Origin: Myxococcales bacterium
GTDB lineage: Bacteria > Myxococcota > Myxococcia > Myxococcales > JAKAPL01
DNA: 64,000 nt
Direction: 5' to 3'
Assembly (NCBI GenBank): GCA_021783235.1
Contig: JAJXUD010000011.1
Location: 20,455-84,454, forward strand
Made by a program: the position numbers and the translations under genes. This document shows positions 32,618 to 51,615 of the stretch, in pieces (the stretch's first letter is position 1; every line of letters starts with the position of its first letter). The notes beneath the pieces are model-generated. The model searched no databases. It was not told the origin of the DNA and worked only from the letters and a program-made list of their open reading frames with translations.

Positions 32618-33092
32618 GCCGATCACGTACCACGCGCATCGCCCCCGGCTCCACCCGCCTGCGCCTGGAAGGGGGCCGAAGCGTCGAACCGAGAGGACTG
32701 TTCGACGCACGCTCGACCTCGAAAGCGCACGTGAGCGGCTCGGGCGGCTGCCGGAAACGGCCGAGCGCGAGGTCGAGCGGCGCGGGGAAGCGCGGCTCCA
32801 GGCCATCGCCCGCTGCCACCGCGTGCTCTTCCGCGACGCGGCGGCGGCGAGGTTCAACTGGGAGGCCGTGGCACGGGGCGACCTCGACGCGATTCGCGAC
32901 CTCCCGGTCGCGCGACGCCGCTTCTCGCTGACGTTCCGCCCGATGAGCGAGGACTCCCTCGCAAGGATCGCCCGCCTCGTCGCCATCCCGGTGAGAAGCA
33001 GCCTCGTCCTCCGCGAGGGGAAGCTCGACGAGCTCGAGGGATCCGCAAAGAAGCTGGGCGACCGGACCAGCACTTGGCCTGGACGCGGCTGA
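32616..33092 (+). CDS. Hypothetical protein, possibly disrupted at its 3' end by the repeat array
   Basis: High-GC3 coding-like ORF LDLESARERLGRLPETAEREVERRGEARLQAIARCHRVLFRDAAAARFNWEAVARGDLDAIRDLPV...; stop falls in the first degenerate array unit; start uncertain. Confidence 0.45.
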   Translation: MPITYHAHRPRLHPPAPGRGPKRRTERTVRRTLDLESARERLGRLPETAEREVERRGEARLQAIARCHRVLFRDAAAARFNWEAVARGDLDAIRDLPVARRRFSLTFRPMSEDSLARIARLVAIPVRSSLVLREGKLDELEGSAKKLGDRTSTWPGRG

Positions 33093-33101
33093 TCGGCCCC
33101 G

Positions 33102-33501
33102 TCCTCCTTCATCAAAGCGGTGGGACGCTCGATGAAAGGGGCGAGTTCCTTCGTCCAACCGGTTTCATCGTCGATGAACGGGGCGAGTTGGTTCTTCTCG
33201 CCCCGGAGTTCGTCGATGAAGCCGGTGGGAGGCTCGATGAAAGGGGTTGGACGCTTCATCCAAGCGGTTCGACGGAGCGTGAAGCCGGTCTCCTCGACCA
33301 TCGAACCGCTTGGACGAAGCGTCGCGGCCGTTGGACGCGCGATGAGACCGGATGGACCGAGCAGGAAGGGGCTTTCATCGTTCATCTCGCCCCTTTCATC
33401 GTTCGTCCCACCCCCTTTCATCGTCGGTGAAGGGCCCGAGACGCAGCGTCCAAGGCCTTTCATCGTGCGTCCAAGCGGTTTCATCGCTCGTCCCACGACC
33501 G
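33102..33501. repeat. Array of about 19 degenerate 21-bp units (consensus approx. CGATGAAAGGSSTTGGACGCT), forward on left, reverse-complement on right
   Basis: Units read by eye at strict 21-bp period from 33102, with one 1-bp slip at about 33417. Confidence 0.92.
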
Positions 33502-33560: not shown

Positions 33561-34673
33561 TTGGAGGAGCTCGACGAGTCACGGCTCATTGAGGGATTCT
33601 TCGCGGGGGACCGGCAGGTCACGGCGCTCCTCATCACCGCCCTGCTCGCGCTGGTTCGGTCCGACTGCGCGCGCCGATGGGGATCGCCCAAGGGTCGGGC
33701 GGACGACGTCGAGTCGCGGCCCCTCTGCCCGTTGACGAAGCGGAAGGGCGAGCGGACGGTGAATCCCGCGGCCCCGAAGCTGCGTCCGGACCAGGCCCTG
33801 AATGAACTGGGCGCGCTCCTCGTGAACCGCCCCGCCAAGGTCGAGCGGAAGAGCGTGAGCCCGGAGAAGGAGGCCATCGGGGCGGCGCAGGAGTTCGAGG
33901 CCGAGCCGCGTCCGGCCGCCGCGACGGCCGAGGAAGAGGCCGGGGCGGGCGACCTCGCCCAGAAGTTCGGGGGCCTCGCGGCCGGGATGGGGGCGCGGCA
34001 GCAGGCGGCGCTGCGGGCGTGGGACAGGCGCCGCCGGGGATCGCTCGGGGGTCGGGCGGACGACGTCGAGTCGCGGCCCCTCTGCCTGTCGACGAAGCGG
34101 AAGGGCGAGCGGACGGTGAATCCCGCGGCCCGGAAGCTGCGGCCGGACCAGAGCCTGAACGAACTGGGCGCGCTCCTCGTGAACCGCCCCGCCAAGGTCG
34201 AGCGGAAGAGCGTGAGCCCGGAGGAGAAGGCCATCGAGGCGGCGCAGGAGTTCGAGGCCGAGCCGCGTCCGGCCGCCGCGACGGCCGAGGAAGGGGCCGT
34301 GGCGAGCGACCTCGCCCAGAAGTTCGGGGGTCTCGCGGCCGGGATGGGGGCGCGGCAGCAGGCGGCGCTGCGGGCGTGGGAGGCGTCGCAGCACGGCGGT
34401 CCTCCCTTGGCGGAGGCGCTTGGCATGGAGCCGCCAGCCGCGCGCAAGCTGCTCGAACGGGCGCGCGAGGCGCTGCTCGCCCGGGCCAAGGCGGCGAAGC
34501 TCGTCGCCCGGCCGGAAGAGGCTCTCGATGCGACGAGGCGATTCGCCGACATGGCGGCTCCTCTCTTGCCCCATTCCCAGTCTCTTCGACCGTCGGGCCG
34601 CCGCTTCAAGTTTCAACTACGTAGGGGACATCTCCTACTTTGGTCCCCCACCCCCCTTCGAAGCTTTCTTTGA
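33561..34673 (+). CDS. ECF-sigma-like protein with internal tandem duplication
   Basis: N-term SRLIEGFFAGDRQVTALLITALLALVRSDCARRWGSPKGRADDV resembles sigma region 2; C-term GARQQAALRAWEASQHGGPPLAEALGMEPPAARKLLERAREALLAR resembles sigma region 4; TTG start. Confidence 0.5.
   Translation: MEELDESRLIEGFFAGDRQVTALLITALLALVRSDCARRWGSPKGRADDVESRPLCPLTKRKGERTVNPAAPKLRPDQALNELGALLVNRPAKVERKSVSPEKEAIGAAQEFEAEPRPAAATAEEEAGAGDLAQKFGGLAAGMGARQQAALRAWDRRRRGSLGGRADDVESRPLCLSTKRKGERTVNPAARKLRPDQSLNELGALLVNRPAKVERKSVSPEEKAIEAAQEFEAEPRPAAATAEEGAVASDLAQKFGGLAAGMGARQQAALRAWEASQHGGPPLAEALGMEPPAARKLLERAREALLARAKAAKLVARPEEALDATRRFADMAAPLLPHSQSLRPSGRRFKFQLRRGHLLLWSPTPLRSFL
33679..34392 (+). repeat. Tandem direct duplication, period 357 bp (119 codons), two copies
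   Basis: ggggatcgc...GRADDVESRPLC...ERTVNPAA...NELGALLVNRPAKVERKSVSPE...QQAALRAW occurs twice, offset exactly 357 bp at two anchor points. Confidence 0.95.
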
Positions 34674-34724: not shown

Positions 34725-36014
34725 ATGGCTCTCCAGCTCGATCGCCCCCGGGCGCCCCGACCTTCGCCGGCCTGCGCGCTGCCGGACCGGCGGCGCGAGC
34801 TCTACCCCGAGGCGACCGACGCCGAGTGGGGAGACTGGCGCTGGCAGGCGCGGCAGATGATCGGGACGCTCGAGGCGCTCGAGGCGAAGCTGCCGCTGTC
34901 GCCCGAGGAGCGCAACGCCGTGGCCTCCACCCGCGCCATCTTCCGGCTCGGCATCACGCCCTACTACCTCTCGCTCGTCCACCCGACGCACCCGTTCTGC
35001 CCGATCCGCCGGCAATCGATCCCGCTCGCGGGGGAGGCGACGGTCCGGCCGGGCGAGCTGCGCGATCCGCTCGGCGAGGATCTGACCCGCCCCACCCCGG
35101 CGATCGTCCACCGCTACCCCGACCGGCTGCTCCTGCTCGCGACCGACCGCTGCACCGTCTACTGCCGCCACTGCACGCGCCGCCGGCTCACCGGGGGCGA
35201 CGAGGGCGAGCTCGACCGGGCGGCCCTGCGCGACGCGGTCCGCTACCTGCGCGCCCACCCCGAGGTGCGCGACGTGCTCGTCTCGGGCGGCGACCCGCTC
35301 CTCCTCTCGGACGCGCGGCTCGACGAGCTGCTCTCGGAGGTGGCCTCGGTCCCCTCGGTGGAGATGATCCGCATCGGCACGCGCATCCCGGTGACCTGCC
35401 CGATGCGGGTGACGGACGAGCTCGCGCGGCTCCTGCGCCGCCACGCGCCGCTCTTCGTCGTCACCCACTTCAACCACGCCCGCGAGATCACCCCCGAGGC
35501 GGCGCGCGCCTGCGAGGCGCTCGTCGACGCGGGCGTGCCCGTGGAGAACCAGACCGTGCTCTTGCGGCAGGTCAACTCGAGCGCCCGCGCGATCCTGGAT
35601 CTGAACCATCGGCTCCTGCGGCTGCGCGTCCGGCCCTACTACCTGCACCAGGCGGACGTGGCCGAGGGGATCGAGCACCTGCGCACGCCCATCGAGAAGG
35701 GGATCGAGATCCTGGAGGCGCTGCGGGGCCACACGAGCGGCCTCGCCGTTCCCCACCTCGCGGTCGACCTGCCGGGCGGCGGCGGCAAGGTGACGATCCA
35801 GCCGAACTACGTGCTCTCGAGCGGCGAGCGCGAGTGGAAGCTGCGAAACTTCCAGGATCGGATCTACCGTTACCCGCAGCCCGCCGAGCGCGACTGCTCC
35901 TGCCCCTACGACGACGAGGTCTTCTACTCGCCCGCCTGCGCGGGGACCGCGGCGCAGGGCGAGGCCGTGAAATGGCCCGCGAGCGAGCCCGCGTCGGCGA
36001 AGTCGACCTCGTAG
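34725..36014 (+). CDS. kamA: KamA-family radical SAM lysine 2,3-aminomutase-like protein
   Basis: CTVYCRHCTRRRLTG (CxxxCxxC), DVLVSGGDPLLLSD, AVDLPGGGGKVTIQPNYVLS (PLP-lysine region). Confidence 0.9.
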   Translation: MALQLDRPRAPRPSPACALPDRRRELYPEATDAEWGDWRWQARQMIGTLEALEAKLPLSPEERNAVASTRAIFRLGITPYYLSLVHPTHPFCPIRRQSIPLAGEATVRPGELRDPLGEDLTRPTPAIVHRYPDRLLLLATDRCTVYCRHCTRRRLTGGDEGELDRAALRDAVRYLRAHPEVRDVLVSGGDPLLLSDARLDELLSEVASVPSVEMIRIGTRIPVTCPMRVTDELARLLRRHAPLFVVTHFNHAREITPEAARACEALVDAGVPVENQTVLLRQVNSSARAILDLNHRLLRLRVRPYYLHQADVAEGIEHLRTPIEKGIEILEALRGHTSGLAVPHLAVDLPGGGGKVTIQPNYVLSSGEREWKLRNFQDRIYRYPQPAERDCSCPYDDEVFYSPACAGTAAQGEAVKWPASEPASAKSTS

Positions 36015-48999: not shown

Positions 49000-51615
49000 A
49001 TGAAGCTCGACAAGCTGACCGTGAAGGCGCAGGAGGCGCTCCAGAGCGCCCAGGAGATCGCCCGACGCCGCGATCACCAGGCCATCGAGCCCGAGCACCT
49101 CGCCCGGGCGCTCCTGGACCAGCCGGACGGGCTCACCCTTCCCATCCTCCAGAAGATCGGCGCCGATCCCAAGCTCGTCGCCGCCCGGATGGACGAAGAG
49201 CTGGGCAAGCTCCCCTCGGTCCAAGGGGGCGAGCCGTACTTCTCCCAGCGGCTCCTCAAGATCCTGGACCGGGCCCAGGACGAGGCGAAGAAGCTCTCGG
49301 ACGAGTACGTCTCGACCGAGCACCTCCTGCTCGGCCTCGTCGGCGAGAAGCGGGGCGCGGGCGACGCGCTCGCCGCGTCGGGCGTCACCCGCGAGCGGCT
49401 GCTCGGGGTGCTCGAGGACGTCCGCAGCGGCGGCCGCGTCACGAGCGAGAACCCGGAGGCGCAGTACCGCGCGCTCGAGAAGTACGCGCGCGACCTCACC
49501 GAGCAGGCGAGGGCCGGCAAGCTCGACCCGGTCATCGGCCGCGACGAGGAGATCCGACGGGTCGTTCAGGTCCTCTCGCGGCGCACGAAGAACAACCCCG
49601 TCCTCATCGGCGACCCCGGCGTCGGTAAGACCGCCATCGTCGAGGGGCTCGCGCGCCGAATCGTCGATGGCGACGTCCCCGAGGGGCTCAAGCACAAGCG
49701 GCTCGTGGCGCTCGACCTCGGCGCGCTCGTCGCCGGCGCCAAGTACCGAGGCGAGTTCGAGGAGCGGCTGAAGGCGGTCCTCAAGGAGATCACCGCCTCC
49801 GAGGGCCAGATCATCCTCTTCATCGACGAGCTCCACACGCTCGTCGGCGCAGGCGCGGCCGAAGGGGCCATGGACGCCGGCAACATGCTCAAGCCCGCCC
49901 TGGCCCGGGGGGAGCTGCACTGCGTCGGCGCGACCACGCTCAACGAGTACCGCAAGATCGAGAAGGATCCTGCGCTCGAGCGCCGCTTCCAGCCGGTCTT
50001 CGTCGGCGAGCCCTCGGTCCTGGACAGCATCAGCATCCTGCGCGGCCTCAAGGAGCGCTACGAGATCCACCACGGCGTCCGGATCCAGGACTCGGCCTTG
50101 GTGGCCGCCGCGACCCTCTCCCACCGCTACATCGCCGACCGCTTCCTGCCGGACAAGGCGATCGACCTCATCGACGAGGCCGCGAGCCGCCTTCGGATCG
50201 AGATCGACTCGATGCCGACCGAGATCGACGAGATCCGGCGCAAGATCCTCCAGTTCGAGATCGAGCGGCAGGCGCTCGCAAAGGAGGTCGACCCCGTCTC
50301 GAAGGGACGGCTCGCCGAGATCGACCGCGAGATGGCCCAGCTGAACGAGCAGTTCGCGGGGCTCAAGTCCCACTGGGACGCCGAGAAGGCAGCCATCCAG
50401 GAGATCCGAGCGACGAAGGGAAAGATCGACCAGGCGAAGTCCGAGATGGCCGAGGCCGAGCGGCAGGCGAGCCTCGGCCGGGCGGCCGAGCTCAAGTTCG
50501 GCGTCCTGCCGGGGCTCGAGAAGGAGCTCTCGGGGCAGAACGAGAAGCTCGCCGAGCTGCAGAAGGACCAGCAGATGTTGAAGGAAGAGGTCGACGCCGA
50601 GGACGTCGCCTCGGTGGTCTCGAAGTGGACCGGCATCCCGGTTGCGAAGCTGCTCGAGGCCGAGATGCAGAAGCTGCTCCACATGGAAGACCGGCTGGCC
50701 GAGCGGGTGGTCGGGCAGGAAGAGGCCCTGCGCGCGGTCTCCGATTCGGTGCGGCGGGCCCGCTCCGGCTTGCAGGACCCGAACCGTCCCATCGGCTCGT
50801 TCGTCTTCCTCGGACCCACGGGCGTCGGCAAGACCGAGACCGCCCGGGCGCTCGCCGAGTTTCTCTTCGACGACGAGCAGGCGATGATCCGCCTCGACAT
50901 GTCGGAGTACATGGAGAAGCACGCCGTGGCGCGCCTCATCGGCTCGCCGCCGGGCTACGTCGGCTACGAGGAGGGCGGGCAGCTCACCGAGGCCGTCCGA
51001 CGCCGCCCCTACGCGGTGGTCCTCTTCGACGAGATCGAGAAGGCGCACCGCGACGTCTTCAACGTGTTGCTCCAGCTCCTCGACGACGGGCGACTCACCG
51101 ACGGTCAAGGACGGACGGTCGACTTCCGAAACGCGGTCGTCATCATGACGTCGAACCTGGGGAGCGAGGATCTGACGCGGCTCGCCGGCGGCGGGGCGGG
51201 ACCCGATCAGCTTCGCACGGTCGCGAACGAGGCGCTGCGAGCCCACTTCCGGCCGGAGTTCTTGAACCGGATCGACGAGGTCGTGGTGTTTCGCAGCCTC
51301 GAGCGCAAGGATCTCGGCCAGATCGTCGACGTCCAGCTCGGCCGGATGAAGAGGCTGCTCGACGAGAAGCAGCTCTCACTGAAGCTGACCGAGGGCGCCA
51401 AGGGGCTGCTCGTCGACCAGGGCTACGACCCGGTCTACGGCGCGCGGCCGCTCAAGCGGGCCATCCAGCGACTCCTCTTGAACCCGCTCTCGATGCACCT
51501 GCTCGCGGGCGAGTTCGAGCCGGGCGACGCCATCGAGGTCCGCGCCGACGGCGGGCAGCTCCTCTTCGAGAAGGCGGGCGCGCCCCGGGCCACTCAGCCT
51601 GCCGCGCGCGCCTGA
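49000..51615 (+). CDS. clpB: ATP-dependent chaperone ClpB
   Basis: Two AAA+ modules [18 protein letters not shown] and [19 protein letters not shown], middle coiled-coil, [36 protein letters not shown]. Confidence 0.97.

Follow-up and report, generated by a model that had tools for sequence, protein, structure and literature searches.

Intergenic repeats of bacteria normally form families held together by a common sequence. Plasmid iterons and partition centromere arrays are built from repeats of about 20-22 bp, in dyad or direct arrangement and phased with the helix. Bacterial minisatellites, or intergenic VNTRs, resemble the arrays described here in being tandem, degenerate, variable in copy number and intergenic, and cyanobacterial STRR heptamers and similar period-7 arrays bear an arithmetic likeness to them (21 = 3 x 7). 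The REP, BIME and REPIN elements are likewise short palindromes outside genes, scattered and in some cases forming clusters; REPs measure 20-40 bp and have a shared sequence and GTAG/CGTC tags (PMC3733652, PMC3116915).

We analysed a 64,000-nucleotide stretch of DNA (the window) on contig C47 of a 4.58-Mb genome of the Myxococcota (G000). An intergenic gap of about 2.1 kb, between a minus-strand sigma54/FHA regulator and a gene at 34725 that by eye appears to be an aminomutase-like radical-SAM gene, holds the array whose features are listed in Table 1.

Table 1. Coordinates of the 21-bp array and associated features in the window
Feature	Position	Strand	Remarks
Gene remnant (3' end)	32754..33092 (about)	+	directly precedes the array
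Quasi-palindromic 21-bp array	33102..33500	.	about 19 contiguous degenerate units; core of TTCATCGTCGATGAA / TGGACGCTTCATCCAAGCGGT type
Motif copy CGATGAAAGGGGTTGGACGCT, forward	33235..33255	+	
Same motif, reverse-complemented	33445..33465	-	CGATGAAAGGCCTTGGACGCT as reverse complement against CGATGAAAGGGGTTGGACGCT; 19/21 identical
Longest/best internal hairpin, left arm GACGCTTCATCCAAGCGGTTCGA	33250..33272	+	22/23 complementary to 33301-33323
Longest/best internal hairpin, right arm TCGAACCGCTTGGACGAAGCGTC	33301..33323	+	fold and sequence
1-bp insertion in C-run	33416	.	register shifts by +1; near-copy C24 without insertion (aligned C24:26251-26628)
3' flank homologous to copy C24	33501..33559	.	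duplicated segment ends here

The initial annotation had described an array of 21-bp units, and the periodicity is borne out. Identity at lag 21 reaches 0.476 across 33102-33500, against a mean of 0.261±0.024 and a maximum of 0.347 in 1,000 dinucleotide shuffles (z=9.1); lags 42 and 63 match it in height (0.457 and 0.450), and TRF agrees, with period-21/42 tracts at 33105-33189, 33372-33424 and 33446-33493. A proposed 1-bp slip near 33417 is real, with a slightly shifted placement (Table 1), and lag-21 identity stays high on either side of it (0.478 and 0.508). The window array shows no elevation at lags 7 and 14, and the A/T sub-period of 10.5 bp that was sought is weak or absent. The spacing does correspond to two helical turns, and the motif pair reported in opposite orientations was recovered at both of its positions. 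The suspected inverted, quasi-palindromic character is also upheld: dyad symmetry of the unit profile is significant under column permutation (z=4.3), and the strand folds more stably than shuffles (z=-10.3) and than arrays in which the 21 columns were permuted identically in every unit (z=-9.7). The suggested division into CGATGA cores on the left and TCATCG cores on the right holds roughly, but both cores are found throughout the array. GATCG/TCGAT hexamers are enriched 4-fold.

Gene remnant and array occur together in all three own-genome copies (32772/32885-33559). The copy on C24 is 89% identical, with one unit fewer and without the slip, which is confined to the window copy; the copy on C27 is longer and super-repeated. 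In the sister-genus genome G001, an open homologue of the remnant encodes 429 aa (two aligned blocks, at 58% and 45% identity) and has a 21-bp array directly after it, as the remnant does. Searches of Pfam, NCBIfam and PADLOC gave no significant family for the remnant or for the translated arrays. The 429-aa protein itself (L029:1052-2341 / L029:2366-2926 pair), with no Pfam or PADLOC match, contains a 'YYGVLCDFVHPN' stretch that looks HEPN/DUF5677-like by eye; it adjoins an IrrE/CapP-like gene in L029, possibly as a defence-type pair moving with 21-bp arrays. A 357-bp direct tandem duplication (two copies, 94% identical, 33671-34381) also adjoins the window array, within an open frame that looks like a decayed ECF sigma factor (SigJ-like match weak, E=0.09).

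The window array is one of many. With all periods of 12-48 open, sampling of 502 kb from G000 and 315 kb from G001 revealed nine and eight period-21/42 arrays, respectively, and most of the remaining periods are multiples of 3; G002 has two period-21 arrays in 114 kb. The sampled stretches were not strictly random, some being contig ends, where repeats are enriched, and of the nine G000 arrays two begin at the first base of their contig and one within 1.3 kb of it; the density of up to about 18 arrays per Mb is therefore an upper-end estimate. G000 probably carries dozens of such arrays. No array with a true 21 period was present in about 520 kb sampled from seven other Myxococcota families, and blastn of the window array against 60 relatives gave two weak matches outside its own genome, both in ordinary sequence that lacks a 21-bp period. 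Most of the sampled arrays have units unrelated to those of the others, and several array families have a TCATCGTCGATGA-type core in common. The G001 loci chosen by a shared 5' leader or by array homology all have period-21 arrays: 9568 positions surpass the threshold at lag 21, and no other lag of 15-30 has more than 425. Several loci selected solely on their leader have units that differ from the query, and the units observed at the chosen loci include GATGAAAGCCAGCTCATGCTC, GAGGTCGACCTGATCGACGAT, CTGATCGCCGAGGTCATGCGT and TCGAAGCCTTCCATCGATGCC. Some arrays have spread to several loci with shared leaders; about ten G001 loci share a leader that is 92-95% identical. At L182, L184 and L185 of G001, two different upstream modules join one array leader at the identical base. 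Separately, an 85-bp higher-order repeat of four CTGATCGATCG-type sub-units lies at L214:1-319 and L215:1-559 in G000, there at contig ends, and at L234:4705-5138 in G001; by eye (L214 and L234) it seems common to both genera.

Length differences between homologous arrays amount to 21n or 21n±1, that is, to the whole-unit change between copies that is seen in minisatellites, and inverted pieces within arrays keep the 21-bp register. In several array pairs transversions are more frequent than transitions, differences are clustered in blocks in only some pairs, and new bases in array units are also present in neighbouring units. The transversion excess would fit an exchange between units without proving it, and bases matching neighbouring units are also expected from plain reversion towards the array consensus. 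Dyad symmetry is significant in most arrays, and 19 of the 21 tested fold more stably than their column-permuted versions, with no excess folding in L241 and L251. The arrays are intergenic, some of them upstream of groEL and tolQ-like genes; the one position compared across the genera is not conserved, and synteny is broken there too.

The same period recurs in Bacteroidota, in gut-type bacteria unrelated to G000. When 84,980 species were scanned for TCATN5ATGA recurring every 21 bp, 96 stretches matched; as the pattern fixes the period, this result alone is no evidence for 21. About half are period-7/14 arrays, among them TCATGAATCATGAT arrays of Bacteroides, Duncaniella, Singulisphaera and cyanobacteria (L103, L117, L121, L124, L126 and others); the period-21 stretches belong to Odoribacteraceae, Prevotellaceae, Tannerella, Flammeovirgaceae and others. 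An independent test is offered by G195 (Odoribacteraceae), where about 17 arrays in 115 kb have period 21/42 and varied units, with a few more of 41 and 44, and the palindrome CTCRYRYGAG is spaced at 21 bp 15 times, at 42 ten times, at 22 once and at 43 three times. When any step of 15-27 bp was allowed in a palindrome search of 59 Odoribacteraceae genomes, the matches listed had 21-bp steps only (at least 45 pairs in G195 and at least 11 in G223), and among these matches CTC(RYRY)GAG arrays were absent from 57 of the 59 genomes. Such palindrome arrays are dense and intergenic in G195 (L301-L310) and lie also at C29:6635-6875 of G223. A giant inverted repeat of 21-bp units, about 520 bp long, was observed between genes in a member of the Prevotellaceae (L097:7380-7905; column-permutation fold z=-11).

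Altogether, the window array is real, non-coding and part of a lineage-wide class, and the arrays are most likely fast-evolving, hairpin-forming intergenic repeats. The explanation we favour, and to which we give about an even chance, is that the window array belongs to a lineage-specific, satellite-like intergenic class with a 21-bp step, often as a 42-bp dimer, grown by slippage and template switching with a helical ruler. Slippage and template switching would make arrays grow and shrink in steps of 21 or 42 bp; self-complementary units could extrude as hairpins during replication and so give direct and inverted copies in register, and recombination or duplication might then place segments at other intergenic sites. 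Template switching is reported to yield quasi-palindrome mutations in yeast (PMC3820800). The ruler would be two turns of B-DNA (about 21 bp), independent of the sequence copied. Such growth would require no host function, and the arrays may secondarily act as phased platforms for proteins. Selection on spacing and a mutational ruler are inseparable on the present data; the ruler is what we infer. More broadly, a process or a form of selection acting in certain lineages as a sequence-independent 21-bp ruler may build or keep dozens of quasi-palindromic intergenic arrays at exactly two helical turns, with separate origins in Myxococcota and Bacteroidota, as a satellite- or chromatin-like layer previously undescribed in bacteria, a proposal that we advance tentatively and with some doubt.

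Since 21 is 7 x 3, and some arrays hold long open frames on both strands, the arrays could also be taken to encode heptapeptide-repeat proteins; the 'SSFI-like' heptapeptide string mentioned in the initial annotation does have a counterpart here, frame +0 before the slip reading SSFIKAVGRSMKG... Nevertheless, the initial annotation had judged protein coding unlikely, and the constraint test across homologues agrees. Substitutions between homologous arrays fall evenly on the three codon phases, and pN/pS in the six frames tested is near 1 (mostly 0.6-1.4 where counts are adequate), with no purifying selection in any frame. The GC-phase test gives p<0.05 in 3 of the 22 arrays from Myxococcota and in 1 of the 12 from Odoribacteraceae, no better than permuted columns, and p=0.60 for the window array, against p=0.0006 for a coiled-coil gene at 1271-1647 and p<0.0002 for a coiled coil at 50137-50411 (ClpB-like, by eye), both positive controls from the window. 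In several other arrays every one of the six frames contains stops, arrays in Bacteroidota genomes include steps of 22, 41 and 43 bp, and the slip breaks the register of the window copy. Coding is thus largely refuted and highly improbable, although annotation can easily mistake such arrays for heptapeptide-repeat proteins. Transcription of the arrays into RNA that acts through its structure (as hairpin arrays, terminators or sponges) we regard as improbable. Folding is strong relative to shuffles in the window array and in copy C27 (z=-6.9), and the advantage over column-permuted versions extends to nearly all arrays tested; however, there is no Rfam match over the arrays, copy C24 no longer has one 21-nt arm of the main hairpin seen in the window array, and dyads at the DNA level would give self-complementarity anyway.

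A docking platform for a dimeric nucleoid or partition-like protein, with selection holding the 21-bp spacing and the arrays shaping the chromosome or nearby promoters, is the chief alternative and would also account for the spacing; we consider it unlikely though by no means negligible. Dyad units two turns apart would put all sites on one face of the DNA, where cooperative binding is possible; the prevalence of dyads, the scarcity of length changes that are not 21n and the intergenic positions, including those ahead of groEL and tolQ-like genes, are in keeping with it. The common TCATCGTCGATGA-type core and the GATCG/TCGAT enrichment likewise leave room for a putative binding protein. On the other hand, the arrays are lineage-restricted, the one position compared shows no conservation in the sister genus, no candidate protein was found, and units within one genome are mostly unrelated; a single sequence-specific binder is disfavoured because many arrays keep the 21-bp period without sharing a unit. 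It is likewise improbable that the arrays lie inside non-autonomous mobile elements, REPIN/MITE-like or in the form of a gene-plus-array cassette, that a transposase has spread. The three own-genome copies of remnant plus array, the near-identical G001 leaders and the recurrence in G001 of the array-adjacent gene all speak for such movement, but most arrays have no common leader or flank, and at the G001 leaders neither terminal inverted repeats nor target duplications are clear by eye. Moreover, the Y1 transposase (PF01797) has a single weak match in each of G000 (25 bits) and G001 (23 bits), not close to the studied arrays.

Our search of the open-access literature found no description of such 21-bp arrays, which proves no absence elsewhere. 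Among described systems, the contiguous degenerate units without spacers do not fit a CRISPR array, and the STRR heptamers are set aside since lags 7 and 14 are raised neither in the window-array family nor in the G195 arrays. An iteron or an array for one sequence-specific protein, in the form proposed by the initial annotation, finds no support: many further arrays with mostly unrelated units have the same 21-bp period, the arrays have no phage or plasmid DNA match, and no rep or par gene lies beside the window array. Unlike plasmid iterons and partition centromeres, the present arrays are chromosomal and probably number dozens per genome. They also differ from REP, BIME and REPIN elements in being contiguous, with dissimilar units and no clear RAYT partner, and a REP/REPIN-RAYT system is not supported, as units are unrelated between most arrays instead of forming a single conserved palindrome. 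Minisatellites and VNTRs have unit lengths that are free within a genome, whereas the present arrays combine one 21-bp length and dyads with mostly unrelated sequences. The pattern suggests that either a novel mutational ruler or selection on helical phasing is at work. The property in common is here a length of 21 bp together with dyad symmetry, seen over mostly unlike sequences in two genera of a single family and in one or more further phyla.
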